NCBI GenBank assembly: GCA_030280995.1 | Contig: JASXTE010000001.1 | Coordinates: forward strand, 24,313,106 to 24,377,105 | Source of the DNA: Hemileia vastatrix | Lineage: Eukaryota > Basidiomycota > Pucciniomycetes > Pucciniales > Zaghouaniaceae | DNA: 64,000 nucleotides | Direction of reading: 5' to 3' | Part shown: piece after piece, positions 9,344 to 60,009 of the stretch | How the letters are laid out: every line of letters starts with the position of its first letter | Numbering within the stretch: the first letter of the stretch is position 1 | Notes under the pieces: model-generated | What the model saw: only the letters and a program-made list of their open reading frames with translations | The model's database searches: none | Told to the model about the DNA's origin: nothing | Position numbers and translations under genes: made by a program

Positions 9344-9345
9344 GT

Positions 9346-18631: not shown

Positions 18632-18639
18632 TTATTCAA

Positions 18640-19893: not shown

Positions 19894-20033
19894 TGGAGCG
19901 ACAAGTTCTTTGGAAGAAATATTGATGAAGATGAATTTTATAGTTGATTAAAGAAGATGGTGGTTGAAGGTTAAAGATGAATATTGTGTTCAACCACTTA
20001 TGCAAAGTTTTAAGAATGGGGACATTCTCGATT

Positions 20034-20043
20034 GGAGGGAGGA
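20034..20043 (+). promoter_or_regulatory. Polypurine tract
   Basis: GGAGGGAGGA lies directly before the TG that starts the 3' LTR, as expected for plus-strand priming. Confidence 0.85.
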
Positions 20044-27148: not shown

Positions 27149-27153
27149 ATTGA

Positions 27154-28600
27154 ATTGATTACATGGATTTTGGCGTGAAAATGATTCTAATTGTTTTAAT
27201 TAAACCCATTACATCTCACTGTAACAACTGTTTTGGGTTATTTTACTCACTGTTCTCATGTTTCAGACTTACTTGGTTACTAATTAATTTAATTAATTGT
27301 TTTGGGAAGCTATGGTGGGAAAATTGATTACTTACTCACGGGTTTAGTTAATTGTTTCATGTTTTTCTCTTAATATCTATGTTTCATTTCTATTCTTTTA
27401 CATTCTTGTTTTAGCCTATTAATATTTTGTATATACTGATTTGTGGCACTTCAGAGGTCCCCTGGTCTATAAAAGGGCCATGGGTAATCCCCTTTAACGC
27501 ATCACTTATTACACTCAACTTTTAACATATTTTTTAAATATATATAACACGTTTATTTTATTTTAATTAGTATTTTAAATCTAATTTAAAAGGTAAATAA
27601 ATATTATAAGGTTGAAGTAAGTCTATTAATAATAGTAATTGTCTGTTGCGCATTGAAGATAGTACTTACTTAAATAAATATATTATAAATAAATAAAACC
27701 TCACTGTTGTGTCAATCTTAAGAAATAGCCATTTCAACTCTTTTATTTTACTCAATTATTTTATTAATTTCATTACTCTAAACCTTTTCACATTTTTCTC
27801 TTCCTCCTCTCTATTTTCTCCACCTTCTTCTCCTTCTTCTAGACGACCGGCTTACAAAAAGAGTATTGTTTGGCAGAGGAGGCGTCTCAGAATAAGGAGT
27901 GGCTGGCACATCCTAAGAAAAAAAGATTAGTATTAGTTTTAGGTCAGGCAAGGAATAAAGTAAAAAAGGAACTTACAGTATGAATACTCTCTTCTGAAAA
28001 GAGCAATCAAGGAATGGAAGCAGAACTACTAAAATTAGGTGCTTGGAAATCATCCCTGGCACATTTTTTGACTGGAGGAGTAGCTTCTGCAGGCGCAGGA
28101 CATTTGATGGTTATCTGACACATCATATCCAAGGTGGAAGCGTCTGGGTTTAGATGCACAACAGTGGACAATCCATTGTAGCTACACTTCTTCTTGCGAC
28201 TTGTGCATAAATTTCACAACTAAAAGGATGAAAGAAATTGAAGTTAGTAATGATAGGATAATAGAAAAAGGAAGGAAGACTCACGTTAAAATAAGTGTTT
28301 CCACAGTGGGATTATGAGAAGTGTCAGGAGGTTATGCCATGTTTGATGCAGTGGGTTCAACTTGTCCTACCCATCAGTGTAGTAATTGGTGTCATGGGAG
28401 GAGCAACAGGGGGCTTCGTTTGCACAAATTGTTGAATGGTGTCCACGACATTGGCCAATTTTCAGCATTTATTGTGTTATTTCTTGTATTCATTATTTAA
28501 AAAGTTAAGATAATATAAAATGGTATACAAAGTAGAAGATGGAGGAAGAATAGGCTGCAAAGCGCAGGGTATTTATAGGCTCATGGGGACAGTTGCAAGT
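27154..28600. other. 3' internal remnant of a third Gypsy element, with a possible antisense zinc-cluster relic
   Basis: This lies directly upstream of a polypurine tract and LTR in + orientation. On the minus strand, 28216-28184 reads stop-x2-Cys-x6-Cys (LCTSRKKKCSYNG), which fits the second half of the zinc cluster of the two antisense genes if the stop was once Cys. A GT-AG-like boundary (GTGAGT near 28280, TTTTAG near 28222) flanks it. The rest is unassigned. The 27709-27930 open stretch is low-complexity. Confidence 0.35.
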
Positions 28601-28610
28601 AGAAGGAGGA
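28601..28610 (+). promoter_or_regulatory. Polypurine tract of the third Gypsy element
   Basis: AGAAGGAGGA directly precedes TGTGGTACAC, the LTR start, in the same arrangement as at 20034-20044. Confidence 0.7.
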
Positions 28611-29874
28611 TGTGGTACACACATCGCAGGTAACTTATCTTTTGGACTAATCATCTTGTGTATCCTGAGAAGAACAAAAGAGAAGCATAACGCAGAAGAT
28701 AGAGCTATTATAAATATATTATTATGATTTTAAAAGAACAAAACAAAAGAAAAGCATGGAAAGGGATTTACGGTCTGTGTGCTTGTATTTTGCAGAAGGA
28801 TATGCAGCATAAAGGAATTATCAACTTAGGAGTCCAAGCACTGAATATTATTGATTTGTATTTTCCAATAATTATGTTTTATGTGTTAGAAAAGAATTAT
28901 GGCTCAAGGAAGGCCTCAAGTACATATTATACTGCACCAGGGCTAGAGTGGTAACTTACTGAAATAGGTAATGTAAGTTTCAGAGGCTAATTAGTTAAAT
29001 AAATTGTCAGAACTATGGACTTAGCAATGAAACGAGGAGAATGGGGACTCAATCACAAAATTACCCAAGAGTAGATGAAACTAGGATCAGCGCTGAAAGG
29101 TGACAACCCAGGAAGTATTGCTGAAACAATGCAAAGGTACAGTCATAAGCGCCCATGTGGAACATGAGTTAAACAAGTACATACTAGTTTTAGTAAGCTT
29201 AGGGTATGTTTAGTTCCTGTAGTTGTTACAAGCAGTGTATTTAGTTTACTAATGAATTAGTTAGTGTTATACTAATGTGATGCTAGAAACAGCACTGGAG
29301 ATCCACTAGGGAACTGTGTCTGGAGTGTTGAAAAATATAAGAAAGAAAGGCTATCTTATTGGAGCAGGGAGGTAGATAGATTATTATTGAGATCAGTCAT
29401 TTTCATTACAAACATGAGAGCTTCATATGATATACTTTTGAAATATATTGTGATATATAGCAATTTTGTCTATTTTGTGATTACTCTGTTAAAAGGTTTG
29501 CGCATCTGTGTGTGTATTTCATATAGTTTAGTGAAAAGCCAAACGCAGAGGGAATGTATAAATTCAGTAGAATAAACTATTATTAGAGTTATTTTATTGC
29601 TATAATAAGGCATATTCAGAGAGAGCACTTCAAGAGGGAGTAGCTGTGGATATTAGCCCTTATTAAGAATAGAAATATCCAAATAGTAATATTTGTATTT
29701 CCTTATCTTTTAACTCATCTCTCAACTCATATACTATCTATTCAGATACTAGTATTACACATTATTGAACTGTCTCTAAAATAAGAGTTGCAGGTGCTTC
29801 TTTTTAGAAATTGAAAAGAAGAACCAGCCCATCTTGCATTCTGTCTACTGCTTAATACTTTAGAACTCTCTACA
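28611..29874 (+). repeat. LTR in + orientation (3' LTR of a third Gypsy element)
   Basis: It runs TGTGGTA... to CTCTACA and is a diverged, inverted counterpart of 35375-36722. It joins directly to minus-strand pol sequence at 29875, so it appears to have inserted into, or recombined with, the minus-strand relative. Confidence 0.75.
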
Positions 29875-30860
29875 CCCCTAGAGTATTTTCCCAGAGCCTG
29901 GTCCATATTCCAATTGTTTCAAAAGGATATCTTTTCCTAAAATTCTTTTTAATAACTCAAATGACTGTTTTCATTCCTCTGTCTAATACCATACAAAATC
30001 TTTCCTTTTTAAGTGCCTTAAAGGTGAAGACAGCAAATCAAAATTTTAAATAAACATTCTTACATATGTACAAATGCCTAAAAACCCTCTAACTTCAGTA
30101 GTATTTCTTGGTCTCGGCCATGTAAGCACCTTATTCTTCTGCTTTTCAGCAATGATCCTCCCTTCCTTCCATACCACATTTCCCACAATATCTAGAACTG
30201 GAACGCAACAAGTAAACTTGGATCCAGAGATCATTAATCTTGCCTCCTCTATCTTAAATAGCACTCTCTCCAGGGTAATCACATATTCTCAAACAAAACC
30301 TCTAATATACCGACTCTCCTGTAACACTTCCCTATAATAGTCACTGGCTGGTATTTTATAGCCCCATCATCAATGAAAATTCCCACATGCTCTTGATCTT
30401 TGTCCTGCAGTATCCATATCATTTGAACTTGGTATACTGCCACAGAATTTGTTGCACCTTGCAGTAACCTTGTCAACATTAAACTTCCCAGTGGTGTTTC
30501 AAATGTAGTCATAGGCCTGGATTATTTGTCTGATTCACACTCATCATATCCTCCAATGATATCACCTAATCCATAACATGCCCGTCCCATAAAAGAATAC
30601 ACAAACTCTTCTGGTTCTGGTGGCATTCCTGCGTCCTTTACCGCAACCTTCTTCACATCCCTAAGATCATGAACAGCACTCAATTTACCACTGTGCTTGG
30701 CAACACAAAACACTGGACTTTAACAACTAGACATAGATTGTTCATAAAAGCCAGACCTTAACCTTTCCCTAATTAATTCCGTATACTCTTCTCTTATAGC
30801 TGCTGGTATTGGAAAAGCCTTCTTCTGCCATGGCACATGAGGTATAACTGGAACAATATA
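29875..30860 (-). pseudogene. pol: Decayed RT/RNase H of the minus-strand Gypsy relative
   Basis: Read on the minus strand it gives FCVAKHSGKLSAVHDLRD, then ACYGLGDIIGGYDE, LLQGATNSVAVYQ, VGIFIDDGAIK and PRNTTEVRGFLGICTYVRMFI. These are clearly homologous to the main element's pol, but frames change and stops occur at about 30520, 30300 and 30040. The RNase H start is cut at 29875 by the + LTR. It is a dead copy of a sister family. Confidence 0.85.
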
Positions 30861-35374: not shown

Positions 35375-36722
35375 TGTGGAAATTTCTAAAGTACTATGTA
35401 GTAGAAACAATGAGAGATGGGTTGGTTCTTCTTTTCGATTTCTAAAAAGAAGTGTGTGCCACTCTTATTTTAAAAACAGTGCAATAATGTGTAACACTAA
35501 TATCTGACTAGATAGTGTATGAGTTGAGATATAATTTAAAAGATAAGGAAAAACAAATATTACTATTGGGATATTTCTATTCTTAATAAGCGCTAGTATC
35601 CACAACTACTCCCTCTTGAAGAGCTCTTGTTGAATATGCCTTATTATAGTAATAAAATTTCTCTAATAGTAGTTTATCCTACTGAATCTATATATTCTCT
35701 CTGTGTTGCACTTTTTCACTATACTATATGAAATATACACACAGACTTACAAACTCTAAAAGACTCAGAATATCTCTAATATGTTCTTAAAAACTTAATT
35801 TCAGAAAAATTCAATCTCTTACTGTTATCAGAGTAACCACAAAAATAGAAAAATTGCTATATATCATAATATATTTTGAACTTATATAATATGAGGCTCT
35901 TATGTTTTTAATCTAATGACTGATTCAAATAATAATTTTTCCTACCTAACGACTAGTCTCCCTTCCTGTTAAATAGCCTTTCTTCCTTATATTTTTTAGC
36001 GCTCCAGACAAAGTTCCCTAGTGGATCTCCAGTGCTGTCGCTAGTTCCACATTATTAAAACAATAACTAATCCATAAGTAAACTAAATACACTGCTTGTA
36101 ACAAATAAAGTTCCTAATAATACCCTATTCTTACTAAAACTAGTACTAACTTGCTTCACTCATGTTCCACATGCGCACTTATGACTGTACATTGCATTGT
36201 TTCAGTGCCACTTCCAGCATTGACACCTTTCAGAGCTGATCCTTGTCTCTTTGATTCTTGGGTAGTTTTTTATCAAGTCCCCATCCTCATTGCTTCATTA
36301 CTAAGTTCATAGTTCTTACAATTCACTTAAATAGTTAGCCTCTGAAGCTTACATTACATTTTTCAGTAAGTTACCACACTAGCTGTGGTTCAGTATACTA
36401 TGTACTTTAGGACTTTCTTGAGCCATAAAACCTTCCTTAACGCATAAAACACAATTATTGGAAAATCCAAATCCATAATGTTCAGCGCTTGCACTACTAA
36501 GCTGATAACACATAATTTGTTTTTGCGGCACATCTTGCTGCAAAATTGGAGCGCACAGAACCTAAATCTTCTTCCACGCTTCTCTTTCCCTTTTTTCTTT
36601 TAAAAGCATAATTACATATTTATGATAGCGCTATCTAATGGGCTATGATTCCCCTTTTTTCTTTCTGGGCTACACAAGCTGATTGATCCAAAAGATAAGT
36701 TACCTGCAATGCACATACCACA
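35375..36722 (-). repeat. 5' LTR of the minus-strand Gypsy relative
   Basis: On the minus strand it starts TGTGGTATGTGC at 36722 and ends TTTCCACA at 35375. It is inverted relative to 28611-29874. It abuts, and probably truncates, the Copia 3' LTR at 36723. Confidence 0.75.
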
Positions 36723-37885: not shown

Positions 37886-39044
37886 TGTCAGCCTAGGTAT
37901 CTCCAGGACTGAGTATTTCTTATTTCGAAAATAAGATAACCTTAATAACATTAAGTTTATTACTTAAAAATAAGGTTAAAATACTTATATATATGGTTAT
38001 AATACATATATATATTATTATTACACTAATATATGACCTATAGTAGTTTAAATAGATTATCCATAGCCTAATAATAGTTATTAAGGTGTTAATGGAGTCA
38101 TAATATACTTATCTTAAGTCATATTAAGCAATTATAGACATTCATAAGCTTATAGGTATACATAAACCTCATATTCAGTGAAATATGTAGTTATATTATG
38201 TATATTTAGGTCTATACGTGGGTTTTAACCTCTTAATAGCCTATAAACTTTATTTTTCTGCTTATTTTAGGTAATATGGACGTATTCAGTGGACTCAGAA
38301 CACCTATTTCAGGTGCATATATCCAGTTTGGACAACTTAATCTGCTTCCTTGGATGGATTTTCACAGATTTATTGGTTGGGATGTGATTACTGGGTTAAT
38401 ATGGATGCTTGGGGATGTTATTGGGAGCTTAAACAGTTAAGTTGGTTCCTTTATATGCTTTGGGTTTCATTATATACTTTTTGGATGAGTTATTTTACCT
38501 GTTTCTTTATGGTATCCGCTTTTATCTGTTTATTCTATTTATAATATGGGTCTGTGGTATCATTAATTGTTATGGAGGGTCCTTACTGGAGGTCTGGGTG
38601 TTTAAACTGCTTAAAGTTTATGCCATAAGGAGGTGATGGGACCTCACAGTTCTGTAATTTCCAGGGATAGCAGTGACATCATCTGGATTGAAGCTCTCTG
38701 CACTTCAGTGGATTTCGGTATAAGTAAGGGAGGATTTGATGGGTTATTGGACATCACTTACTTACTAAACTTCAAATAAACACTAAAACTAAACAACTAT
38801 CATATATAAATATATTATAAAGCATTTATAAATTGATGTTATCTTTAAATAAGCTATAACTATATTTTATTGATCTATTTTCCACCACTAGCACGCATAA
38901 AATACAAGTATTGTGAGTTTATATTGAGAGTAACTATTTTATTAGTCTTCCCCTGAGGTTTAATCACTAAATCATTTATCAAAAAGTAGTTGGACCATTA
39001 ATATTTACTAATAAGTCATACTTAGATACTAACGCACACTGATA
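37886..39044 (+). repeat. 5' LTR of the fourth Gypsy element
   Basis: It pairs with 45796-46970. After it, TTGGGGTC begins a possible primer site starting with TGG, but I cannot assign the tRNA. The hydrophobic open stretch inside (38350-38544) has a counterpart in the other LTR and is not evidence of a gene. Confidence 0.85.
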
Positions 39045-39577
39045 ATTGGGGTCTTTCCTTAATTATTACTTATTATTTAGTATAAGCCTTAGGACGTGAT
39101 TTTTACTGTAGTATATCTCAAAAAAACCAAATATTTGAGTCTTCAGCACATTAGTGGGTCATAATAACTCAGTTATTGCGGAAAAGAACCTTTATAATAA
39201 TTGTACTAGTTTTTTTATAATAAAAATTAGGTATTTACAGTAGTAACTGTACCCAATATAAACCCAATTTCACTTGGTATTTGGTCACCAATATAACACC
39301 CAATTAAATTGGTATTTGGTTAAATATTGGTAAGCTAATTATTCCACCTTATAAAGATCTAGCTAAGCTTATTATATTTTTTTTGACAGATTTTTTGAAT
39401 TTTTCTTATATTTTATTTATATAAATAGAGATATATATTCAGGGTAAGCTCCAGTGCTTTTATTAGTAATTGTATTGCTAATATTTTTTGTCTACTAATT
39501 ACCATATAGGTTATCCCTTTTGTAGACGTAAATAATTGTTATTTAAGACACAATAATTGCTCCATAGGACAATGTAA
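39045..39577 (+). other. Leader of the fourth Gypsy element
   Basis: Untranslated leader with a short imperfect repeat of CCCAAT, TTGGTATTTGGT phrases at 39245-39330. No gene is seen. Confidence 0.45.
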
Positions 39578-41480
39578 GTGAAAAACCTGCTTATAATACC
39601 AGGTCTAAAGCTAAAAATATTTCTCCAGGACATCACCATGGTGGGTCAATCCTACCCACAACCAGAGTCTATGAGTATAGAAGAAAAATGCGCTCTTCTA
39701 AAAAAGAAAACAATCAAAAAGACTTCACCTTCTCTGCAGGATCAACTGTCCTATCTGGCCAAACATGTTCTGAAACTAGAGGAATCAAAAGCTACCATGC
39801 TAAAGGAGGTAGAACAGTTGCAAAACAACTGCAAGGTGGGGTTCCAACAAATGAATCAAACCTTGGAAGAGTAAAAGGTAGGGCAGCCAAACCAACAACC
39901 CCCTACCCAAGGAGGGTCACATCATTCCCAGGAAAAAATCTTGGTAGAGAAAGGGAAGTAGGACTGGTTCCATCAGCAGTGGTCAAGCCACAATTGCAAC
40001 AGGGATCCAACACCTCATCAGACTGCCTCAGCTCACCCCTACAAAGGAAAGCAAAAGCGCCAAAAGTTAGGGCTTGCTCCTATCCTGTGGTAAGTATATT
40101 ACCCTCTCAGATTGAACACAATACTGATGATTAAAATATAGGTAATGTTATTGATGTAAAATCTGTACACAAAATTAAGGAGGACTTAAGACAATTAGGT
40201 TTTGATGTAGATACACCTGATTTATCTTTTGTTAATAACAACAGTACTATTTATAATAATAATATAGTTAACCCTCAGTTGCCACCACTTATCAGTGAGA
40301 TGAGAAGTTCACAAAACAGTGAAAAAATTGAGAAGTAAAACATGGAGTATATTAATAATAACCCAACTGTCCATAGAAATGTTTCAGAATTATGGAATAG
40401 AATGACTGAGTGTGAGGAACAGACAATTAAGCTCACAAGTGATACAATTTTGTCCTTGAAATTGAAAATTTCTCAACTGGCAACAAGAAATAAAGAATTA
40501 GAGGATGAACACTTGACTCTAACTTTTAAATATGATTCTTTAAGTAATAAATATAGTGAACTTTCAAACAAATTCTGTGAGTTAGAAATATTGTATGAAG
40601 CACATTTATTAAAATCTGAATCAAGAACTAAGATATCTTTTGCACAAATAAATCAGAGTGTCTCTGATCTGTTACAAAGATTAACTAAAGTTGAGATAGA
40701 AACTGCTAATCTACTAATATATCAGGATAATCATAAGTATACACAGTATAATAATAATCCTTTCATTTGCAAAAATGAATCTCAATCATTTCCAATGCCA
40801 TCACAAGTACAACCGTCTGGTGGAAGTGTCAAGTCTGAGAAGAAAAATGTAAGTCACAAATCCATGCAAGATGAAATACAAGACAATTTATCCAGAGTGA
40901 ATGAGTGATTGAATTTACCTAAGATTAGTGAGACTTAATCCAATCAGAAGAACTGGCCAAAGATTGATCTGTACCCAACTTATTATGTGGAATCCAGCTC
41001 TTATCGGCAACATTTTATTCAAAGAATTGACAACTTGAAATTCTCATATAATTTACCAGATGAAGAAATAACATCAAAAGTTATCTCTTTATTTAAGGAT
41101 GTTGAATTATTATGGTTTGAAGCTTTTTTGAGTGAGGGTAAAGACTACTCTTGGGCTGAATGGAAACAACTAATTAAAAAACAATTTTGAGGTTCTAAAT
41201 TCAGGCTCACTCAGCAAAGATTATATGAGATATCTAGGTATAATCTGTTGAATGGTGACAAACATATGGTATTTTTAATGAATTTAAATAAAATATTAAA
41301 AGCCATTGAGCTGAAAATGGATTTTAACTTATGGAAAGATAAGATAATATATAAATTACCTATATCTGTCAGAGACATTGATGTAGCTAGAACAATAATG
41401 ATTAATGAGTAATCTGAATTTATTAATATTTGTAATGAAATATTATTAAACCATAAGTATGAAGCAAGGTACACCACTTA
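39578..41480 (+). pseudogene. gag: Gag of the fourth Gypsy element, 5' part
   Basis: Pieces at 39578-39874 (a helical start with LSYLAKHVLKLEESKATMLKEVEQL), 40342-40908 (coiled-coil-like, Lys/Glu/Leu-rich) and 40987-41190 (Gag core, FIQRIDNLKFSYNLPDEEITSKV, WFEAF, WAEWKQLIKKQF) are followed in changed frames to 41480. Stops at 40906-40908, 41188-41190 and 41410-41412 break it. Confidence 0.75.
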
Positions 41481-41741
41481 CACTACGCAATATTGGGGGT
41501 GGACTTGCTAGCAAGTCCTCAACCTGAACTCAGATGGAACTCAGATGGAACTCAGACTGAACTCAGACTGAACCCATACTGAACTCTACTTGAACACCCA
41601 CCTAAAACTGTTCTGCTGAGTGGTGTTCATCCCTGATTGTATGGTTCCTTTATCAATAGCTCAATGTGTGTTCAATCTATGGTGAGTTTGGGTCCAAGGT
41701 TGCGGACTTGCTAGCAAGTCCGCCCCCCATATTGTGTGGTG
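41481..41741 (+). mobile_element. Short CACTA-like inverted-repeat transposon, copy 1
   Basis: The 261-bp element is flanked by TTA on both sides (41478-41480 and 41742-41744). The ends are inverted repeats of about 42 bp starting CACTACGCAATATT and CACCACACAATATG. Each holds the 18-base perfect palindrome GGACTTGCTAGCAAGTCC. Inside is a short tandem run of GAACTCAGA units. Removing it with one TTA rejoins the Gag frame of the host element, confirming the boundaries. It has no coding capacity. Confidence 0.88.
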
Positions 41742-42126
41742 TTATAAACAAAATAATGAACCTGTGAAAAATCAGAATTCAAAAACACTTCAAGAGAAGC
41801 AAAAAAAACCTAATGCACCTGTAGTACCTAAAAAGTATAAAACTAATACTTGTCATAAGTGTAATAAACCTTGGGTTAAAGGTCACAAATGTGAGAAGAA
41901 TATAAATATTGTTGAAAATCAGCATGAATCTGAAAATGAAACAGAAAAAAATAAAGATTCAAGTGATTATGACAGTAATATCTCATATAGTGATGAGAAT
42001 GAAGTCTGTATGTTGGAAGATGATTTGTCCATCTTTGAAACTCCAATATTTAATATGGACTCAAATGAATCTTTAATGAATTTCAAGGATGCTGAAATCA
42101 TTAAGGATATACAAGCTATAACTTAA
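41742..42126 (+). pseudogene. gag: Gag of the fourth Gypsy element, 3' part with zinc knuckle
   Basis: Continues the frame interrupted by the small transposon. It contains CHKCNKPWVKGHKC, the C-x2-C-x7-H-x2-C knuckle typical of many fungal and plant Gypsy Gags, then an acidic tail ending at 42124-42126. Confidence 0.8.
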
Positions 42127-42139
42127 AAATAACACCTAC

Positions 42140-42614
42140 CACGGTTCCAGCTATCATTTCTGAAGAAAATTTAAATATAGTATTGGACACAGGAGCTTCT
42201 GGTTCTAATGTTTCAACAAACACATTACAAAAAATTGATAGTGAGTATAAGTCAAAGCTTGAACCCCTTAAAAGTAAAAATTGGAGAGGTTTTGTATCAG
42301 TACTACACCCCATTGGTAAATACAAAGCTGCTTTTTTCTTTAAACATCAACATGGTTATGTTGGAGTAACTTGTTACTTTGTAGTAATAGATAATACTAA
42401 TTGTAGTATCTGTTTTATCATTGGAAATGACATTCTGACTAAGTTTGGTGTGAAATTAGACCCTGTTAATAATAATTTTAAAATTGGCATGAATGGTAAA
42501 AGGAAATTTAAAATAAATTCTTTTAACATGGTCTTACACATTGAGTCAGTAATAAATATTCCTTGTAAAGGAAGAGAATCCAATGAGATGAAACTTCTGG
42601 AAACAGAAATTTAA
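42140..42614 (+). pseudogene. Aspartic protease of the fourth Gypsy element
   Basis: The active site IVLDTGASGSNVS lies at about 42177-42215, and IIGNDILTKFGVKLD is the second conserved strand. The frame ends at a TAA at 42612-42614. Confidence 0.8.
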
Positions 42615-44179
42615 AAAGCATCATTTGGCACTCAGTTAAGTAAAGCTGAGAAAACAAATATTTTGGACTTAATTAAAGAATTTCCAATTGCTTTTGCACA
42701 TGGAACAATTGAGCTTGGCCTTGTAGAAGATCATGAGATTAAAATTAGTTTAACCTGTGATATGCATAATATTCCTGATAGTCTTAAAATGAAACCATAC
42801 CCTGCTTAAACAATGAAGAAATTCATAGAGGAAAATATTAAGATGTTATTAAAAATGAAAATTTTTGAAAAGGTTGAAACTACACCAAAATATTGTGTAA
42901 TATCACCAGTACTAATTTCTTATGAACAAGATAAAGCAAGACTGTGCGTTGATTATAGAGCATTAAATACATTCACAGTGGATGATATTTATCCCTTGCC
43001 AAGGATTGCCTCTATACATGCTACCCTTAAAGGTGCTAAGTAATGAGTTGCCTAGATGGAAATAAAATGTACCATCAGATACCTGTAGAAAAGAATTCAC
43101 AGAACTTTTTGTTGATAACAACACATATGGGAATATATAAATATGTCACAATGCAATTTGGACCAAAAACGTTTCTGTCAATATTTCAGAAATTAATGGA
43201 TATAAAATTCCATAATGAAATGATTGAGGGGTGTTTAATGGTATACATTGATGACATTATAGTGGTCTCTAAGACATATGATGAACACTTAGTCCATTTA
43301 AAGAAGGTAATTCAGAAAATTGATGAAATAAAAATGACCCTTGCATTGAAAAAATGTAAATTTGGGTTTGAGTCTTTAAAAGTGCTTGGTCATATTGTAT
43401 CTAGCTTACAAATATGTGTAGACCAAAATAAGGTGGTTGCAATCAAGAATATTGGCATTCCTCAAAATTTAAAGGATGTACAATCTTTTCTTGGTATGTG
43501 TGGTTATTATAGACAATATATAAAGAACTACCAATTAATTGCTGCACCATTAACCACACTGATAAATAAATCAGAAGTTTTCATTTGGAATAATGAAAGA
43601 CAACAGGCTTTTGATAATTTTAGAGAATGTTTGATGACAGTTCCAATATTGGGATTACCAGATTTTCAATTGCCTTTTGTATTGTATACAGATGCAAGTT
43701 ATATTGGTCTGGGTGCTGCTTTGCATCAAAAACAACTTATTGAAGGGAAAATGTCAGAAGTAGTAATTTGCTATATTTCGCGTACTCTAAGAAGTAGTGA
43801 ATTGAAATATGGTTCTACTCAACTTGAATGTTTGGCAGTATTATGGGCTCTTGAGAAGCTACATTATTACCTTGAAGACCAAAAATTTGAGTTAATAACT
43901 GACTGTAGTGCAGTTAAGTCACTCTTAAAGATGAAAACTCCTAATAGACATATGTTTATATGGCAATTAGCTGTACAAGAATACAGAGGACAGATGACTA
44001 TTACACATAGAGCAGGAACCTTACAGTCTAATGTAGATCTGTTATCTAGAGTACCTCTACCCAATAATGATGATAATCCTGCTTATGTTCCTGAGTCAGA
44101 GATTATTAAAATTTATGGCATTTATATTGTAGATCTTGAGGATGAATTTATACAATCAATTCTTGATAATTATGCTTAA
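42615..44179 (+). pseudogene. pol: RT-RNase H of the fourth Gypsy element
   Basis: RT begins near 42813 with FEKVETTPKYCVISPVLIS and RLCVDYRALNTFT. A TAA at 43040-43042 breaks it, then MVYIDDIIVVS holds the catalytic Asp pair. RNase H follows (FVLYTDASYIGLGAALHQ, ELKYGSTQLECLAVLWALEKLHYYL, FELITDCSAVKSL). The frame from 43043 to 44179 is open, so this is the best-preserved part of the element. Confidence 0.88.
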
Positions 44180-44188
44180 GATCCTGCC

Positions 44189-45441
44189 TTGAGTAAACTT
44201 ACTACAATATTAAATGATTCATCTAATGCTTCAATGAGTGTTTTAATAAAAACATTACCACAAAAGTATAAAGAAGCATTAGAAAAAGGAAAATTTTCCA
44301 TTGAGGATGGTTTTATATATTACAGGAAGAAATTAAGCAATTTATTTGTAATTCCCCCTTCAATGAAGGAGTTAATGTTAAATATATGTCATGATGATAT
44401 ATTAGCAGGTAATTTTGACTTCCATAAAACTTTAACCTGAGTAAAAAATACAGCTTGGTTGATTAGCATGTCTGATGATGTTCAAAAATATGTTGAGACA
44501 TGTGATTCTTGTCAAAAATCTAAAAGATTAACGCAAAAAAGAGCTGGTTTATTACAACAACTTGAGCAACCAAAAGCTCCATGGGAAATATTTAACATGG
44601 AATTTGTAACAGGTTTTCCAATATCAGGGTATAAGAGTTATAACTACTGCTGGGTAATTGTAGATAGATTTACAAAAATGTGTAAATTTATTCCTACCCA
44701 CAGAGAGGTTTCTGCAAAGTACTTAGCTTTTTTAAGGTGGACACAAATGATAAATATAGCAGGTTTCCCCAAAGCAATAGTCTCAGACAGAGATCCTAAA
44801 TTTACTTCTGAGTTCTGGACATCACTTATGGATGTTTTAGGATGTCAATTAAAACTTTCTACAGCACACCATCCACAAACTGATGGGCTAGCAGAAAGAA
44901 TGATACAAACTTTAGAAGATATGATAAGAAGATATTGTGCTTTTGGTATTGACTTTAAAGAAAATAATAGACTAAGGTATGATTGGGTAACCCTTATCCC
45001 AGGTTTAAATTTGGATACAATAGTACAGTACATTCTGTCACTGAAAAAAAGCCATTTGAGTTATAGTTGGGTTATGTACCTAATACCCCTGATAAAACTC
45101 TTAATAAATTTCCTAGATTGGATATCCATCCAGGTTCAAAATCTTTTCTTCAGATGCAAGAATTATTCAGAAAGCATGCTCAAGAATGTATAAATAAGGC
45201 ATTTGAGTATGATAAGAAAAGATGGGATAAAGCCCATAAAGAAAAAATGTTCAAAGAGGGTGATGAAGTCCTTATTTCTACACTACATATCAATTTATAT
45301 GGTAATGTTAAATTTAAAGATCCATTCATTGGACCATTTGTAGTAAAAAAGATGGTTGGTAACAATGCTGTTAAAGTTATTCTATATGAACCATATGATA
45401 GAAAAAATCCAGCATTTCCTATTTCTCTTATAATACCATAA
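44189..45441 (+). pseudogene. pol: Integrase of the fourth Gypsy element
   Basis: The zinc domain region (HDDILAGNFDFHKT, then CDSCQKSK) is broken by a TGA at 44438-44440. The core shows FNMEFVTGFP, IVSDRDPKFTSEFW and HHPQTDGLAERM. The first catalytic acid is Glu (MEF) instead of the usual Asp, so activity is doubtful. A frameshift at about 44970-45070 precedes the C-terminal part (45067-45441). Confidence 0.85.
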
Positions 45442-45499
45442 AATTCTAATGATACTGCTCTATTTCAAAGAAGATCAGGAAGGCACAAACAGCAGCCTG

Positions 45500-45680
45500 A
45501 AGAAATATTTGAAAAGGCAGAATTTGAAAAGATACTTAAAAACAGATACCTTACTAAATAAAAGGGAGTTGAGTGTCTATAAAGGTTTAAAAATAAATCA
45601 AGTGAATATGACCAGTGGATTCCAGAAAATGAAATCATTGATCTTAAAAATCTCTTGAAAAAATTTAAATCCAAATAATA
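45500..45680 (+). pseudogene. Chromodomain-like remnant at the pol C-terminus
   Basis: Reading the frame of FEKAEFEKILKNRYLTK through two stops gives a pattern ending EYDQWIPENEIIDLKNLLKKF, which fits a chromodomain (Tyr-Leu, Phe-Lys, Trp-x-Pro, Leu-Leu). This suggests a chromovirus-type element. The two stops lie within the domain. Confidence 0.5.
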
Positions 45681-45795
45681 CTGTTTAATTCAGTATTTGT
45701 ATCATAAAAATTTTTAAAAATTATTTTTCTATTCACTCCTTGCTTATGAATTAAAATGTCTTAACATTTTTTTATTGTTTTTTTGGGTGAGGGAG

Positions 45796-46970
45796 TGTCA
45801 GCCTAGGTATCTCCAGTACTGAGTATTTCTTATGTTTAAAATAAGATAACCTTAATTAAATTAAGCTCATTACTTAAAAATGATGTTAAAATACTTATAT
45901 ATATGGTTATAATATGTATACATATTATTATTACACTATCATAAGACTTATAGTAGTTTAAATAGCTTATCCATAGCCCAATAATACATATTAAGTTGTT
46001 AATGGAGTCATAATATACTTATCTTAGGTGATATTAAGTAATTATAGACATACATAAGCATATATGTATACATAAACCTCATATTCAGTGAAATATGTTG
46101 TTATATTACGTATATTTAGGTCTATAAGTGGCTTTTAACCTCTTAATAGCCTATAGCCTTTATTTTTCTGCCTATTTTAGGTCATATGAACGTATTACGT
46201 GGACTCATAACACCTACACAAGCATATACACCTATTTCAGGCACATATATCCAGTTTGGACAACATAATCTGCTTCCTTGGATGGATTTTCACAGATTTA
46301 TGGGTTAGGATTTGATTACTGGGTTAATATCAATGCTTGGGGATGTTTTTGGGAGCTTGGGAAGTTAATTTGGTTCCTTTATATGCTTTGGGGTTCATTA
46401 TATACTCTTTGGATGAGTTATTTTACCTGTTTCTTTATGGTATCCGCTTTTATCTGTTTATTCTATTTATGGTATGGGTCTGTGGTATCATTAATTGTGA
46501 TGGAGGGTCCTTACTAGAGGCCTGGGTGTTGAAACTGCTTGAATTGAACGCTATGGAAAGGTGATGGGCCCTCACAGTTCTTGAATTGCTGGGGATAGCA
46601 GTGACATCATCTGGATTGAAGGTCTGCACTCCAGTGGATTTTGGTATAAGTAAGGGAGGATTTGACGGGTTATTGGACATCACATACCTACTACACTTTA
46701 AATAAACACTACAACACAATTATTATCATATATAAATATATTTTAAAGCATTAATAAATTTATATTATCTTTAAATAAGCTATAACTATATTTTATTGAT
46801 CTATTTTCCACCACTAGCATGCATAAAATCTAAGTATTGTGAGTTTATATTGAGAATAACTATTTTATTAGTCTTCCCCTGAGGTTTAATCACTAAATCA
46901 TTTATCAATAAGTAGTTGGACCAATAATATTTACTATTAAGTCATACTTTGATACTAGCACACACTGACA
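45796..46970 (+). repeat. 3' LTR of the fourth Gypsy element
   Basis: It starts TGTCAGCCTAGG after a purine-rich tract (GGGTGAGGGAG, ending at 45795) and ends CACACTGACA. It is diverged from the 5' copy by many substitutions, so the insertion is not recent. Confidence 0.88.
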
Positions 46971-48772: not shown

Positions 48773-49022
48773 CACCACACAAAATGGTGGGCGGACTTGC
48801 TAGAGAGTCTGCAACCTTTGACCCAAACTCACCACAGATTGAACACACATTGAGCTATTGATAAAGGAACAATAAAATCAGGGATGAGCACCACTCAGCA
48901 TAATAGTTTTAGGTGGGTGTTCAAGTAGAGTTCAGAATGGGTTTAGTGTGAGTTCAGTCTGAGTTCCATCTGAGTTCAGGTTGAGGACTTGCTAGCAATT
49001 CCACCCCCTATATTGTGTAGTG
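48773..49022 (-). mobile_element. Short CACTA-like inverted-repeat transposon, copy 2
   Basis: A 250-bp reverse-oriented copy of the 41481 element, with CACTACACAATATA and CACCACACAAAATG ends. The palindromes are partly decayed (TGCTAGAGAGTC at one end, TTGCTAGCAATTCC at the other). Flanks read CCT (left) and CAT (right), a 3-base duplication with one change. It interrupts the Copia protease-integrase frame. Confidence 0.85.
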
Positions 49023-51526: not shown

Positions 51527-52277
51527 TGTCACACGCCACATGACACTTGAGGCAAAAGCAGCTCATTAAATCAATAATATCGAGTTCTAAATCTATACTC
51601 GAAGCGCAGAAAGCAATTCTCCATAGCAACTGCAATTCCCCTTTGTGTACTTACTGTTCAACTGCGCTAGCCTAAACTCTAAGTCTAAATTAGTCAATCT
51701 CTCAATTGTGTGCCTTAGTCTCAATTTAAATAAGCGACGCACAGTGCTATGATCAACGTAATAGTACATTAGTAGTTTTCATTAAAAGGGGTAAATTGAG
51801 CATGGATGGATATTAGCGAAGAGGGTCTAAGTGTATGTTAGTAATGGTCAATGGTATGGGAATGGTGCGATGAGAGGGAGGTCAATGCAAGGGGGAATAA
51901 AGGATATAAAAGGGTTGGGTATTTGGTTCGATATTCCTTAGAATTAAATTATAAAACGTATTTACATTTAATAGTGGTAAAATCTTTAAGTTAAATCATT
52001 ATTATTGTATCTTTCTTTTATTTTCTCAATAATCATTTCTAAATCCTAAATCTTTGATTATTGAGTTTCCAACCCTTCGTGAGATCTTAAGAATTCCTAT
52101 TACCTTTGAAACTATATTATAATTCTTCTCAAACATACCTCGAACCTGTAGCTCTTACTTCGAGTGACCTTCGAATCACTTCCTCGAATCATTCCTCTGT
52201 GCTTTGAAGAAGTTTCTAAATCCCTCATCTCACTTTCAGGAACATCCTCGACCTTGTGCGTAGGTCGTCCGGTGACA
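51527..52277 (+). repeat. 5' LTR of the chromodomain element
   Basis: It contains a cluster of TCGA words near its 3' end (52139-52190). A TATAAAAGGG box at 51905-51914 is a plausible promoter, present also in the other LTRs (ATATAAAAGGG near 26771 and 59638). No TGG primer site follows directly. Confidence 0.88.
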
Positions 52278-52348
52278 GTATAATTTAATTCTCCGTAGTT
52301 CTCATTCTTTGCACTACTACGTCCTTTTAGGTGTTTTAAAGTTTTAAA

Positions 52349-53520
52349 ATGGCACCTGTTCAACGCACTCCTCCTACGGGCGCTACTACTAGAGCTCACG
52401 CTAGGGGCAGGCCAACAGCCACAAGGTCTGTTTCCCGCACTCACTCTTTGGAACCACTCGACCTTAGGGAACGGCAACATTCAGTTAAATTTGTAGAAGA
52501 CATTCCACAAGATTTTGAGGATTCTAGTGATGAAGAAGAAGGAGAGGATACAATGCACGAGGCACCATCCGCCCCAGCCAATCACCCTACTGGTCAATCC
52601 TCAGAACCTGGACCATCTAATTCTCTGGAAGATTTCATGAGACTTTTCATGAAAACCCTTTCAAATCCAACGTCTTCAGAGGGATCTAAGTTCAAAACTC
52701 CTTCTATGAAATCTCCTGACAAATTCGATGGAGATCACCCCAACAGATTGCGACCCTTCTTGCAAACCTGCAAGCTACTGTTCCATAATGACCCTCGAAC
52801 CTTTAATAGCGAACGATCAAAGGTTGTTTACGCTTCTTCATTCCTAGCCGGGAAAGCAGCAAGATGGTTTGAACCTTATCTGCTCATGCTTTCTTCAACA
52901 GAAACCCACTTACTTATCAATAATTGGGAAAAGTTCAAAGACCAACTTTTTACGTTGTTTGGGGACCCTAATGAAACTGACAACGCAGAAATTGAACTTG
53001 ATTTTCTTCGCATGAGTGATAATGGTAAAGCCTCGGAATATATCTCAAACTTCAGAGCACTTCAAACTCGAGTAGGTTGGAATGATGCTGCACTTAAGTA
53101 TCATTTCAAGAAAGTACTTCCTTCGAGGATTCTGGATCAATTAAATTTTCACGGTCAGAAGATGACTACTTTAACGGATTTAATGGATCTAACCCTCGAA
53201 CTTGACGGCGTTTATCAAGGACGACTTCAACATCGTCGATATTCCAACAAATCTCAAGGCCTAGCTTTAAATTGGGATCTTCTTCACACCCACGACCAAA
53301 TCAATCCTCCTAGACTCAATCCAAACCCAATAAGGGAAAGGATAAACCTCGACCAAAAGGCTCGACTCCAGGCAATATCAGCAAAGTACTGGATCCTAAA
53401 GTGGAACTTAAAGAAGCTGAGAGGAAGAGACGAGCAGATAATGGGTTATGTATGTATTGTGGGGGTAAGCACAAGTTGGAAGACTGTGTAAAGTTGAAGG
53501 AAAGAGAAGGTACTAGTTCG
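52349..53520 (+). pseudogene. gag: Gag of the chromodomain element
   Basis: The 52349-53260 frame carries the typical Gag core: PDKFDGDHPNRLRPFLQTCKL, then YASSFLAGKAARWFEPYL, NWEKFKDQLFTLFGDP and EYISNFRALQTRVGW. A frameshift near 53262 moves the rest to the -1 frame. There a TAG near 53314 and the knuckle CMYCGGKHKLEDC (C-x2-C-x3-H-x4-C) are found. The end of the nominal 380-codon frame is therefore out of frame. Confidence 0.88.
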
Positions 53521-53549
53521 AAGTCAAAAAACTAGTAGATAGCTTACTT

Positions 53550-54410
53550 GTGTGCAAAGCAAACTATCTTGTCTCTCCCAGTGCACAGAATCTCCATGTC
53601 TTAAGGACTGGAGTTGCCTTAAACCGCTTGATATTCATTCTTTTTAAGGAGGATATCCCCTTCAGTTGTCTTATAGACTCTGGAGCTTCAATTTCTTTTG
53701 TTAGTTTATCTTTTGCCGAGAAGCTTCAACTAAAATTTACAGATGTCGATCGAACTCCAATCTATTTGGTCGAATCAGAGGAACCCAAATATTGGGTAAG
53801 TAAGAAAGTTTTATGGGTTTTCAACTTTCCGAACTTTCCCCCCTTCGAGTGGGAATTATCAGTCTTGGACGCCCCAAGGATGGATGATACCATTCTTGGC
53901 CATGACTTTTTAACGCATTGGAATCCCGAAATTGATTGGAATAAGGCATTGATCACCCCACGCTCTAAGTATATTTCTGATTCTTCAATGCAGGTCAATA
54001 GGGAGTTAAACAACCCGCCTGACAACGTCCTTCTAGAGGACGAATCTCTGCCAGATGACTTGCAAGCATCTGATCTTTCTCTAAATGAGCAATTGGCTAA
54101 CACTTCTAGCTCGATGACTTCACTCGAAGAGGATTTAAATTGCCTCGAAGTAATTGAATACTGCTCTCTCAATTCAGGTATCCCCTCAACAGATTCTCTT
54201 GAAGATGAAGAGGATGACCAAATCAACGTTGAAGCCATTAAATCAACTCTACCAGAAATATACCACGATTTCCTCGATGTTTTCTCAATCAGCAAGGCTG
54301 ATAAGTTACCACCTCATCGACCCTACGACCATCAAATAGAGTTAATAGGCCCAGTAACTCCGGCAGGTCCTGTCTATTCTTTTTCAAAGGACGAATCACA
54401 AGTTCTTTGA
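53550..54410 (+). pseudogene. pol: Protease and RT start of the chromodomain element
   Basis: The protease active site is SCLIDSGASISFVS. The linker is acidic, and the RT start (DKLPPHRPYDHQIEL) follows. The frame ends at TGA 54408-54410, after which the sequence continues in the same frame ([25 protein letters not shown]). Confidence 0.85.
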
Positions 54411-55310
54411 GACTACATTGCAGAGAATGTAGCCAAAGGTTTCATCAGAGCCAGTAAATCTCCAACCGGCTCCCCTGTCCTCTTTGTAAAAAAGAAGGAC
54501 GGTAGTCTTAGGTTGTGTGTTGACTATAGAAAGCTCAACACAGTCACTAAGAAGAATGCATATCCTGTTCCTCCTATGTCATTACTTCTTACCCTTTTCA
54601 ATGGTGCTAATTTCTTTTCTAAAATTTATCTTAGAGGCGCTTACAATCTGATTCGCATTGCAGAAGGTCATGAACCACTGACTGCAATGCGCACTAGATT
54701 TGGTAGTTTTGAATATTTAGTTATGCCTTTTGGATTGTGTAACGCACCTTCAACTTTTCAAACTTTTGTTAATGACATCTTTCAAGATGTTGTTGAACAA
54801 TTTGTAGTCGTCTATTTAGCTGATATTTTAATATTTTCAAAAACACTAGATGAACATATTCATCATGTTCGACAGGTCCTAAATCGTCTTCGAGATCATG
54901 GTCTCTACGCCAAGCATAATAAATGCAAATTCCACCTCAAATCAATTGATTTTTTGGGTTTTACGTTGTCCACTGACGGTTTAGTCATGGATGACAAAAA
55001 AGTCCAGAAAATCCTGGAATGGCCTGAGCCCAAAACCATTAAATTGCTCCAAGGATTTTTGGGTTTTGCAAACTTCTATAGAAGATTTATTAAAGATTAC
55101 TCTTAAACTATTTCCAATCTTACTTCTCTTCTTATAAAAGACATTCCTTTTGTTTTTACTTCTACAGCACGAAAGGAATTCGAAGCACTAAAAACGGCGT
55201 TCACCACAGCCCCAATTCTTCGACATTTTGATCCTTCTGCTTCGACAATAGTTGAGACAGATGCGAGCGATTATGCTATTGCAGGGGTCATCTCCCAATT
55301 AAATCCTGAA
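54411..55310 (+). pseudogene. pol: Reverse transcriptase of the chromodomain element
   Basis: [14 protein letters not shown], then [13 protein letters not shown] and [11 protein letters not shown]. The last block should be YxDD; here the first Asp is Ala (GCT), so polymerisation would be lost. A TAA at 55104-55106 lies after [10 protein letters not shown]. The RNase H start (TIVETDASDYAIAGV) follows at about 55250. Confidence 0.9.
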
Positions 55311-56693
55311 ACAAATTTGTTTCATCCTGTTGCTTTTGAGTCATGCAAACTCATAGCCGCAGAATTAAATTATGAAATTCATGACAAAGAGCTTTTAGCT
55401 ATTATCCATTGTCTTAAAAAATGGCATTCTTTTCTTCTCAGCCTAGATAGTCCTTTTCAAATTTTAACAGATCATAATGCTTTAAAATACTTCATGTCTT
55501 CCAAAGTGTTAACCAGGCGACAAGCCAGGTGGGCTGAATTTTTGTCTGAATTTCTCTTCTCTATTTCCTATCGCCCAGGTAAAAACTGCATTGTCCCAGA
55601 TATCATGTCATGTCGGGACGACGTTTACCCACAGCGGGGGGACGCATTTGCTGACAAGAACCCAGCAAATGTGCAATCAATTTTCAAAGAATCAATGTTA
55701 ACGACTCATCAACTTAATTCGATGACAATTCAATCTTTTCAAAATCCACTATCCAACATCCTCGAAGCTCAGTCAAAGGACGATTATTGTTTAGGGTTAA
55801 AAGACAAAATACTTTCGAAGCAAGGGGCCAAAAGATTTAGTATTGAATCAGGTCTATTAGTCTTCAAAGGTAGAGTAGTCATACCCAACAACAATGAGAT
55901 AAAATTATGGATTTTCAACAGTCAACATGATTCTCCATTAGCTGGTCATTTTGGGGTTGATAAAACCTACCAGTTAATAGCGAGGGATTTCTTCTGGCCA
56001 AGTATGACCAGAGAAATCAAGGCCTATATAAAAGCTTGTTACGAATGTAATAAGAATAAGGCTCCCCGTCACCGGAAGCATGGGTTGCTTCAACCACTTC
56101 CTATTCCCTCTAAACCTTGGGAATCTTTATCGATGGATTTCATTTCTCAACTTCATTTTTCTAATGATTTTGATGCTATATTAGTAATAGTAGATAGATT
56201 TTCAAAAATGTCTATTTTCATTAAAACCACTACTACTGCTACAGCAGAAGATTTGTCAAAATTGTTTCTAGAATATGTATTTTCCAAACACGGCTTACCA
56301 AATGATATTATTCCAGATAGAGGCTCATTGTTTGTATCCACATTCTGGACCCAACTGTGTCGACAAATCAATATCACGAGGAACCTCTCCACGGCCTATC
56401 ACCCTGAAACCGACAGTCAAACAGAAAGAGTTAACCAAATCCTCGAACAATATCTTCGAATGTATGTCAGTTACCAACAAGACGATTGGACCACATGGTT
56501 ACCACTGGCCGAATTTGCTTATAATAACTCGACTCATTCTTCAACACGACAATCTCCCTTCGAAACCATTTATGGACAACATCCTCAATTCAACTCAATC
56601 CATGTAGGAACTAATCATCCTGTGGAACATTATCTTCGAACTATATCACGACTCCAAGAAGAACTTAAAACAAATTTGGAATCAGCAATTTGA
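55311..56693 (+). pseudogene. pol: RNase H and integrase of the chromodomain element
   Basis: The frame continues RNase H (ELNYEIHDKELLAIIHCLKKW, LTDHNALKYF). The integrase zinc domain is HDSPLAGHFGVDKT with CYECNKNK. The core has SMDFISQL (Asp), IIPDRGSLFVSTFW (Asp) and ETDSQTERVNQ (Glu), so all three acids are present. A TGA at 56691-56693 ends it early. Confidence 0.9.
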
Positions 56694-57182
56694 AGATACA
56701 AGGAACAGGCCGACAAACATTGACAATCTGCTCCTTCCTTTAAACCAGGCGACAAAGTATGGCTCGACACACGAAATATTTGAACAACACGACCATCAAA
56801 GAAACTGTCTGAAAAGCGCTTGGGACCATTCGAAATCAACTCTGAAGTCTCTAAAACTGCATTTCGACTCAAGTTACCTCCTAAATGGCAGGCGATTCAC
56901 CCTGTTTTCCATGTATCTCTCCTGGAACTGGCTCGAGAAATATACCCGGGCAGGAACCAACCCCCTCCGGAACCTGTCAAAGTAGAAGATCATCTAGAGT
57001 GGGAAGTAAGTCGTATCCTTGATTCAAGAATGCGCAAGGGGAAACTTCAATACCTCGTGGAATGGGAAGGCTTCCTCAATGACTCAGACAAAACATCCTG
57101 GGAACCAGCCATCAATGTTTCTAACGCCCCTGAACTTCTAAAATCTTTTCATTTGAAATATCCTTTAAAACCAAAACCTTAA
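56694..57182 (+). pseudogene. Integrase C-terminus with chromodomain
   Basis: From 56820 the frame has an SH3-like LGPFEINSEVSKTAFRLKLP, the HPVFHVSLL block, then the chromodomain WEVSRILDSRMRKGKLQYLVEWEGF with SWEPA, ending at 57180-57182. The chromodomain would steer integration to marked chromatin. Confidence 0.88.
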
Positions 57183-58171: not shown

Positions 58172-59128
58172 TCATTTCAAATTTTTTTCTTTTGATTTTT
58201 CTCCAACCAATCTTTTCATCTTCTCCAAAATTACCCTTATCTCCTTCCTGCATTTCTCAAATACCTCCTCCTCTCCTACCGGAACCACCTCTCCAATCTC
58301 CAAGAGTTCCTCTGCCACGTCAAAGGAAGCAGCGTCAATAATTGTATCAAACTCCCCACACAACTCATCTGCGAACCTAACTCGTCGACCCTGACAAGGT
58401 TTCTTCGACCACACCTGGTCCAGCGTTTCCTCAGGTTCTTCGATTCCACCCGTGACCGGAGGGTTTGCCTCAGTTGGCAAAAGCGACACAGGTTCCCCAA
58501 TTGGGTCTTCAATGGTATTCGATGTCTAAACAAGAACTCATCAGTAACCTCATCCCTAAAAACAACAAGTAAAACTTACTTCGAAGATGGGGTCAGGTTC
58601 TAAGAACAACCTTGGAGCCACCTCTACCTCTGCTTCTCTCTCCTCCTCGTCATCTTCAATGACCACCCGTTGTTTCTTGAGTGTCCGCCCTGGAACAGGG
58701 AATTCATCCTCATCTTCCTCCACCAATTCGTCGACCTCTTCTTTGACACCCCGTTTTGAACTCGTGGCCTGGGTTACCCAGGTTGTGATCTCCTTGTTAA
58801 GCTCCTTATCGTTCTCCCCCACCGATTGATCGTCTCCAACCAAGACATCCCAAATGTCTTTGACCACCTCTTTTGTTTTAGGAATCACCCAAAACTTGGT
58901 CTTGGTGAATCGTTGTTCAATCTCTGCATTCTTTGTCAACGCATCGCACACCACTCGTCGCCAACGGCAAAACTCGCATTTCTGGCAAGGGCCTCGAGTC
59001 GCCGTACTTTCGACACAGAAGTATTCCATAGCTTCACAAGCCGTGCAAGCTTGGGAAAACTGCCGCGTAACCATTCCCCCATCCGCTTTAGGGTGTGGAG
59101 GCGTAAGTGTGGGAGTAGGACAATTCAT
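58172..59128 (-). CDS. Antisense spliced gene: zinc-cluster protein (300 aa) inside the chromodomain element
   Basis: Exon 1 is 59128-58580 and exon 2 is 58525-58172, joined over a 54-base GT-AG intron (58526-58579, donor GTAAGT, branch-like CTGAT, acceptor TTTAG). The join is in phase 0 and gives 300 aa. Cysteines at residues 28, 31, 38, 51, 54 and 61 form C-x2-C-x6-C-x12-C-x2-C-x6-C (CTACEAMEYFC ... CEFCRWRRVVC), with an extra Cys at 48. A very acidic, partly basic stretch follows (about 120-175). The C-terminus is helical and charged (EEEVFEKCRKEIRVILEKMKRL). It starts about 110 bases inside the 3' LTR. Nothing in it looks like a retroelement enzyme. It may be a DNA-binding regulator or a captured host gene. 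No stop or shift is seen, although the pol genes beside it are broken. Confidence 0.75.
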
Positions 59129-59240
59129 TATAATAGGGAAATTAATAAATAAGAAAAAAAATATATATAGAGGAAAGGGAAACTAGTGTGAGAAGATGGC
59201 TCAAGCTCAACGGAGCTTGTGATTCTTATACCCGGGCATC

Positions 59241-60009
59241 TGTCACGCGCCATGTGACACTCAAGGCAAAAGCAGCTCATTAAATCAATAATATCGAGTT
59301 CTAAATCTATACTCAAAGCGCAGAAAGCAATTCTCCATAGCAACTGCAATTCCCCTTTGTGTACTTACTGTTCAACTGTGCTAGCCTAAACTCTAAATCT
59401 AAATTAGTCAATCTCTCAATTGTGTGCTTAGTCTCAATTTTAATAAGCGACGCACAGCTCTATGATCAACGTAATAGTACATTAGTAGTTTTCATTAAAA
59501 GTTTGTTAATTAATTAAAAGGGGTAAATTGAGAATGGACGGATATTAGCGAAGAGGGTCTAAGTGTATGTTAGTAATGGTCAATGGTATGGGAATGGTGC
59601 GATGAGAGGGAGGTCAATGCGAGGAGGAATAAAGGATATAAAAGGGTTGGGTATTTGGTTCAATATTCCTTAGAATTAAATTATAAAACGTATTTACATT
59701 TAATAGTGGTAAAATCTTTAAGTTAAATCATTGTTATTGTATCTTTCTTTTATTTTCTCAATAATCATTTCTAAATCCTAAATCTTTGATTATTTAGTTT
59801 CAAACCCTTCGTGAGATCTTAAGAATTCCTATTACCTTTGAAACTATATTATAATTCTTCTCAAACATACCTCGAACCTGTAGCTCTTACTTCAAGTGAC
59901 CTTCAAATAACTTCCTTGAATCATTCCTCTGTGCTTTGAAGAAGTTTCTAAATCCCTCATCTCACTTTCAGGAACATCCTTGACCTTGTGCGTAGGTTGT
60001 CCGGTGACA
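59241..60009 (+). repeat. 3' LTR of the chromodomain element
   Basis: It starts TGTCACGCGCC and ends GTCCGGTGACA (GTAGGTTGTCC variant). It matches 51527-52277 with scattered changes, several of them CG to TG or CA. A purine-rich stretch (AGAGGAAAGGGAAA, 59169-59182) is the nearest polypurine candidate but not adjacent. Confidence 0.88.

Follow-up and report, generated by a model that had tools for sequence, protein, structure and literature searches.

An antisense gene beside the 3′ LTR of a chromodomain Gypsy element

The window analysed here (64,000 nt of Hemileia vastatrix, contig JASXTE010000001.1, positions 24,313,106 to 24,377,105) contains members of three families of Gypsy retrotransposons, called A, B and C below. 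Our subject is a predicted zinc-cluster gene lying antisense beside the 3′ long terminal repeat (LTR) of the B element, which carries a chromodomain, and its counterparts in the other two families. A first-pass annotation had proposed a spliced antisense gene just inside the 3′ LTR of this element, and we find it as a two-exon frame of 300 residues, read on the minus strand from 59128 to 58172 (Table 1). Its ATG is 113 nt internal to the start of the 3′ LTR, in the interval between the end of the chromodomain (57182) and the LTR. Exon 1 (549 nt) encodes six cysteines in the pattern C-x2-C-x6-C-x12-C-x2-C-x6-C. Three in-frame stops (54410, 55106 and 56693) and frame shifts interrupt the pol region of the same element; it is indeed broken, although the earlier description of it as full of stops is overstated. 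No matching target duplication was seen at the flanks of the element.

The six-cysteine motif has two open matches in the window, one in this gene and one in the antisense gene of family A (Table 1), and the spacing of the two is identical, as had been reported. No open match occurred in 150 dinucleotide shuffles of the window. The window does contain other unexplained open frames of 120-210 residues, which would favour a chance open frame that happens to hold cysteines. However, given two exact matches against none in the shuffles, and selection on the A gene (described below), for which chance was already very unlikely, we consider this explanation very improbable.

Copies of the B gene in the genome

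The antisense genes of A and B are not confined to the single copies of the window, which the first-pass annotation had left as a possibility. Protein searches of the genome (747.6 Mb in 791 contigs) gave at least 150 matches each, from 6916 candidates for B and 8470 for A, and a DNA search with B gave 40 scored matches (of 4251 candidates), all 40 matching at 93-100%. Copy counts for A, B and C rest on matches to the antisense gene itself, and the places sampled all carry the gene. From the DNA and protein searches with B we fetched 38 loci, representing 34 distinct places, all of which were aligned.

The start codon is kept in all 34 copies, as is the GT donor of the intron, and the AG acceptor is kept in 33. 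All six cluster cysteines are present in 30/34 copies; a seventh cysteine in the window copy is found in nine. The distance from ATG to LTR is 107-114 nt in 33 copies, with the LTR not located in the remaining one. A complete frame is found in 7/34 copies, and four others stop within about the last ten residues. The frame had been called intact, which is correct for the window copy but atypical of the family. Copies of B also occur in regular tandem, in one set of three at intervals of about 7.7 kb and another of three at about 10.9 kb (C42:17328684-17345082 and C502:26947638-26970011), and the window contains a solo LTR about 80% identical to the B LTR (26340-27148), flanked by a 5-bp duplication, ATTGA.

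The pol open reading frame (ORF) of B had 3651 relatives in the protein database. Among the 120 listed, most of those named by organism come from the rust Austropuccinia psidii, at no more than 58% identity.

The same layout in families A and C

The A gene encodes a product of 202 residues from a first exon of 373 nt and a second exon. It starts with ATG in 28 of 30 fetched copies (the window copy reads ATT), and in 29 of them the start codon and the LTR start are 123 nt apart; in the other the LTR was not located. The A integrase shares 23% identity with the B integrase over 237 residues, and a scan of two A ORFs turned up no chromodomain, in agreement with the earlier placement of A and B in separate Gypsy branches. 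The family has a compound arrangement at 1683-21191, with three LTRs and two internal regions, the first far shorter, and the family carries repeats at 16386-18312.

A decayed third case had been suspected at 28184-28216. What lies there is a single half-cluster, part of exon 2 in a family C gene of three exons that has decayed. The first half-cluster lies in exon 1 and reads C-x2-C-x7-C (loci L091 and L092), and an intron of 62-65 nt (donor ATGAGT in L091) interrupts the cluster in L091-L093. In these three copies the second half-cluster follows in exon 2, with another intron (64 nt) after it. The second half is damaged in all four copies read: a stop replaces its first cysteine in the window, its spacing is x5 in L093, and cysteines are missing from it in L091 and L092. 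Comparison of the copies suggests an original spacing of x6. The stretch 27858-28620, which includes the window copy, is a portion of a separate repeat.

L094 (9.9 kb) is the sole C locus read at length; there, pol is on the opposite strand to the C gene, and the integrase shares 61% identity with the A integrase. The closeness of the C and A integrases means that two Gypsy lineages are involved, with three families. L094 also contains a second antisense frame, D (3225-3794, plus strand), with two C-x2-C groups in the one copy read. Genome searches gave at least 150 matches both for C exon 2 (1460 candidates) and for D (5885 candidates), and many of the D matches have long open frames. Of the 150 listed C places, 52 are followed on the same strand by a listed D place, 1.15-2.44 kb downstream; none was found on the opposite strand within 5 kb of the listed C places. 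D has no Pfam match and no significant similarity to A.

With 118 nt from ATG to LTR in the window copy of C, all three families have a common layout, on the same strand and in the same place beside the 3′ LTR (123 nt in A, 107-114 nt in B). The antisense accessory gene is a real, multi-copy feature of two Gypsy lineages, B on one side and A with C on the other. The proposal of an accessory module of basidiomycete Gypsy elements stands in that more than one Gypsy branch carries such a gene, in the same place, on the same strand, spliced, multi-copy and with reversed cluster halves (next section), with selection seen in A; judging from the sequence comparisons, its basidiomycete attribution is likely.

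The halves of the zinc cluster appear in reversed order

The A cluster reaches the cut-off of the Pfam family Zn_clus (PF00172), at 23.6 bits vs 21, aligning through profile positions 1-15 on the second half of the cluster. Four cluster peptides (A, a second A subfamily, B and C) align to PF00172 in two separate stretches. In A and B the start of the profile lands on the second half; in C its end lands on the first. After exchange of the halves, each peptide fits as a single stretch, covering profile positions 1-34 (A), 1-33 (second A subfamily), 3-31 (B) and 2-36 (C). The scores changed from 29.5 to 26.8 bits in A, 33.0 to 30.3 in the second A subfamily, 12.1 to 12.7 in B (window letters) and 19.1 to 24.6 in C, whose peptide is a composite of two copies. 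The host gene L080 behaves otherwise: unaltered it fits as one stretch, and exchange drops its score from 25.1 to 14.2; all four host genes read (L070, L073, L076 and L080) show the usual order. The half-clusters of A, B and C thus appear reversed relative to the Gal4-type order, an argument that concerns order and not score. AlphaFold models were too poor for use, both for the B cluster (mean predicted local distance difference test, pLDDT, 67; predicted template modelling score, pTM, 0.44) and for six A clusters (mean pLDDT 55, pTM 0.34). The best zinc-cluster matches in the genome often come from small unplaced contigs (such as C698, C472 and C313), where they lie in long frames, and these might be contamination from another fungus.

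Outside the cluster, the A and B proteins are unlike each other, as the first-pass annotation had stated. Their profile similarity exceeds that of 20/20 column shuffles, but 2/20 shuffles with the cysteines fixed scored higher, and for this reason we do not claim homology between them. The same result is consistent with repeated capture, in which each Gypsy lineage took up a zinc-cluster gene separately, the stretch between pol and the 3′ LTR being tolerant of insertions. The introns also fit separate origins, as those of A and B differ in phase (after first exons of 373 and 549 nt) and that of C falls inside the cluster. However, the unusual reversed order is common to A, B and C, while the few host genes read show the usual one. 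We regard repeated capture as unlikely, if worth serious consideration; it is compatible with a regulatory role.

Codon-level selection

Across the 34 B copies (383 variants), the ratio of nonsynonymous to synonymous variants was 1.60, compared to about 2.33 for redraws of those mutation types on the same gene (0/2000 redraws were as low). Stop variants numbered 17, against 24.1 expected, which is not significant. The 34-copy signal is biased, because 26 of the 33 compared copies were picked by protein similarity to the window copy, a choice that favours synonymous variants. As it fades to non-significance in the seven copies chosen by DNA similarity, we do not claim purifying selection on the B protein. 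The variants in those seven are nearly equal by codon position (42, 38, 44).

In family A, the ratio of nonsynonymous to synonymous substitution rates (dN/dS) between L041 and L081, L084 and L087 was 0.23, 0.24 and 0.18 (122, 93 and 111 codons), and between L041 and L079 it was 0.06 over 55 codons, all at near-saturated dS. Uncorrected ratios were 0.33-0.41 in frame, and shifting the frame on that strand raised them to 1.04-1.68 (two frames). Of the opposite-strand frames, two gave 0.82-1.52 and the one sharing third positions gave 0.37-0.65, with 1-4 stops. Constraint peaks in the cluster (0.19-0.25) and is weaker downstream of it (0.52-0.79), although the diverged loci came from a zinc-cluster search, which biases the cluster part. 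Purifying selection clearly acts on the A gene between subfamilies, at a dN/dS of about 0.2.

These results bear on the idea that antisense RNA is the effector, pairing with sense RNA to trigger or temper silencing, with the frame incidental. Such a role is raised for plant antisense ORFs in PMC7264820, and the non-significant result for B in the DNA-chosen copies would agree with it. It does not account for the constraint on the A frame, an effect that vanishes in shifted frames, or for the retention of six cysteines in most B copies, and we consider it distinctly improbable.

Repeat arrays and candidate promoter elements in the LTRs

CGG triplets are recognised by Gal4-type proteins, and the A LTR contains a tandem array rich in CGG/CCG that may offer candidate binding sites (Table 1). 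The 11-bp unit of the three A-type LTRs of the window is TCCGTACGGAC (2165-2258, 8703-8774 and 20518-20607). The densest 150 bp of the window lies in these LTRs and holds 19 CGG/CCG triplets, vs at most nine outside A LTRs, and 27 of the 30 fetched A copies, which are recent and not independent, exceed nine (the exceptions are L053 with seven, and L058 and L064 with nine each). By dinucleotide shuffle, two of the three window LTRs are enriched over their whole length (0.3% and 2.3% of shuffles as high). As a general explanation the CGG array was dropped for B and C, whose LTRs have none. Further 11-bp tandem arrays, with the same period as in A, occur in an inverted repeat pair at 41524-41586 (CTGAACTCAGA) and 48928-48979 (GAGTTCAGTCT).

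TATA-like elements are suggestive of an antisense promoter. In addition to the TATAAG of B (Table 1), C has a TATAAA 84 nt before the start in the window copy and about 120 nt before it in L092 and L094, with none in L091. In the A copies parsed, TATAAA is found solely at -22 and about -210.

Other contents of the window

The element at 37886-46922 was considered as a further case and rejected, as no cluster motif is present. The window also contains a DDE_Tnp_4 transposase fragment (24347-24949, minus strand), which is a DNA transposon remnant, and a multi-copy repeat at 27150-27857, probably an LTR, with copies about 8 kb apart in several places. No Rfam family was found in the 64 kb.

Table 1. 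Coordinates, within the 64-kb window, of the antisense genes and the associated parts of Gypsy families A, B and C
Feature	Position	Strand	Remarks
B element 5′ LTR	51527-52277	+	
B gag, protease, reverse transcriptase, RNase H, integrase, SH3, chromodomain	52340-57182	+	domains; interrupted by stops and frame shifts
B antisense gene, exon 2	58172-58525	-	ends in the stop codon
B antisense gene, intron (predicted GT-AG, 54 nt)	58526-58579	-	donor GTAAGT
B antisense gene, exon 1	58580-59128	-	183 codons; ATG at 59128; zinc cluster 58946-59047
TATAAG, candidate antisense promoter element of B	59225-59230	-	about 100 nt before start; in 33/34 copies
B element 3′ LTR	59241-60009	+	96.7% identical to 5′ LTR (ungapped)
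A antisense gene, exon 2	19228-19463	-	
A antisense gene, intron (predicted, 84 nt)	19464-19547	-	
A antisense gene, exon 1	19548-19920	-	start codon ATT in window copy; cluster 19792-19893
A element 3′ LTR	20044-21191 (end approximate)	+	
11-bp tandem CGG/CCG-rich array in A LTR, candidate binding sites	about 20511-20607		other copies 2165-2258, 8703-8774
C antisense gene, decayed three-exon copy	27858-28493	-	second half-cluster 28184-28216
Probable C LTR beside C gene	28611-29900 (start by comparison with L094; end provisional)	+	inverted copy at 35375-36722

Discussion

What might such a gene do for its element? The antisense transcript would start from a promoter beside the 3′ LTR and would be spliced, the predicted cluster would bind zinc and DNA, and the DNA-binding product would regulate the LTRs of the element. 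In family A, the CGG/CCG array of the LTR would suit the product as a target; for B no candidate target was found. We give slightly better than an even chance to the reading of the B protein as DNA-binding and as a likely regulator of transcription from the LTRs of its own element.

Several results weigh against it. B falls below the PF00172 cut-off, with no match in the exon-1 frame and 12.1 bits for the isolated cluster vs 21. None of the seven DNA-chosen copies (L002-L008) has a complete B frame, and their ratio of nonsynonymous to synonymous variants (1.88 vs 2.24 expected) is matched by 22% of redraws, which is not significant, although these copies are only 4-6% diverged and the test has low power. 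Neither the 300-residue B protein (1623 candidates) nor an alignment of five A sequences (6923 candidates) found a homologue outside this genome at E-values up to 10; unannotated spliced genes escape such a search of the protein database, although the control with the B pol ORF and its 3651 matches shows that the database holds fungal elements. As for the binding sites, the third window A LTR is not enriched (14% of dinucleotide shuffles as high), and 0-3 triplets are present in 1.7 kb of CpG-poor sequence at each of four older A-type loci, of which one has a recognisable LTR start. The LTRs of B and C are without a CGG array, and any tandem repeat would enrich some triplet.

The mostly broken B frames, both among all aligned copies and among the DNA-chosen ones, also suit a passenger, a host-derived gene multiplied along with the element and of no service to it, and gene capture by retroelements is known (PMC7264820). 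Decay is, however, expected in a fast-turning element, yet A subfamilies at near-saturated synonymous sites retain the gene, and C and D are paired, always on one strand, at about a third of the listed C places. A passenger seems improbable to us.

Regulation of the element's own LTRs by the antisense product could also be part of a larger scheme, which we put forward tentatively and think rather unlikely. Here the antisense module would be ancient, predating the split between chromodomain and non-chromodomain elements, and its own half-swapped Zn2Cys6 factor would be coupled to sites in its own LTRs (the 11-bp array of A) as a self-contained feedback circuit, with C going a step further to a unit of two antisense genes.

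Plants, retroviruses and one fungal case provide known examples of antisense ORFs near the 3′ LTR. In plant Gypsy elements, additional antisense ORFs (Grande gene23, RIRE2 and Retand) sit between pol and the 3′ LTR; as described in PMC7264820, they resemble the genes reported here in strand, place by the 3′ LTR, high copy number and a proposed regulatory role, while their proteins lack clear database similarity and the zinc-cluster motif here is recognisable. TRP28 of Retand is likewise antisense, in the interval between pol and the 3′ LTR, with predicted DNA binding and a tandem-repeat region as in family A (PMC11963269). The TRP28 domain (PF04195) had no Pfam match in the exon-1 frames of A and B, in C exon 2 or in D.

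HBZ of human T-cell leukaemia virus type 1 (HTLV-1) is a basic leucine zipper protein, whereas a zinc cluster is predicted here. The two are alike in that HBZ is encoded by an antisense gene near the 3′ LTR and is a nuclear regulator of its own element (PMC11963269). With the Gal4-type Zn2Cys6 domain (PF00172), the predicted clusters share six cysteines, two C-x2-C-x6-C groups and a basic stretch in one half; the basic half is first in the Gal4 type and second in A, B and C. In Botrytis, brtn of Boty-like elements was reportedly described by Zhao et al. in 2011. It resembles the B gene, by description alone, as an antisense gene in a fungal Gypsy element with a chromodomain gag-pol (PMC8365987, PMC4227169 and PMC5987419). 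By analogy with the plant antisense ORFs, brtn and HBZ, the best reading would be an accessory module for a DNA-binding regulator.

What appears to be new, judging by the predicted protein, is an antisense gene with a zinc cluster that is recognisable but half-swapped; no such gene in a Gypsy element came up among the papers listed (titles and abstract openings, with few subscription papers). The plant proteins are like nothing known, which is largely why the role of antisense ORFs has stayed obscure. In the present case a fungal DNA-binding motif can be recognised in two Gypsy lineages and one family has candidate sites in its LTRs, which together give a concrete hypothesis of self-regulation, and the reversed halves would be a rearranged form of a well-studied fungal DNA-binding domain.
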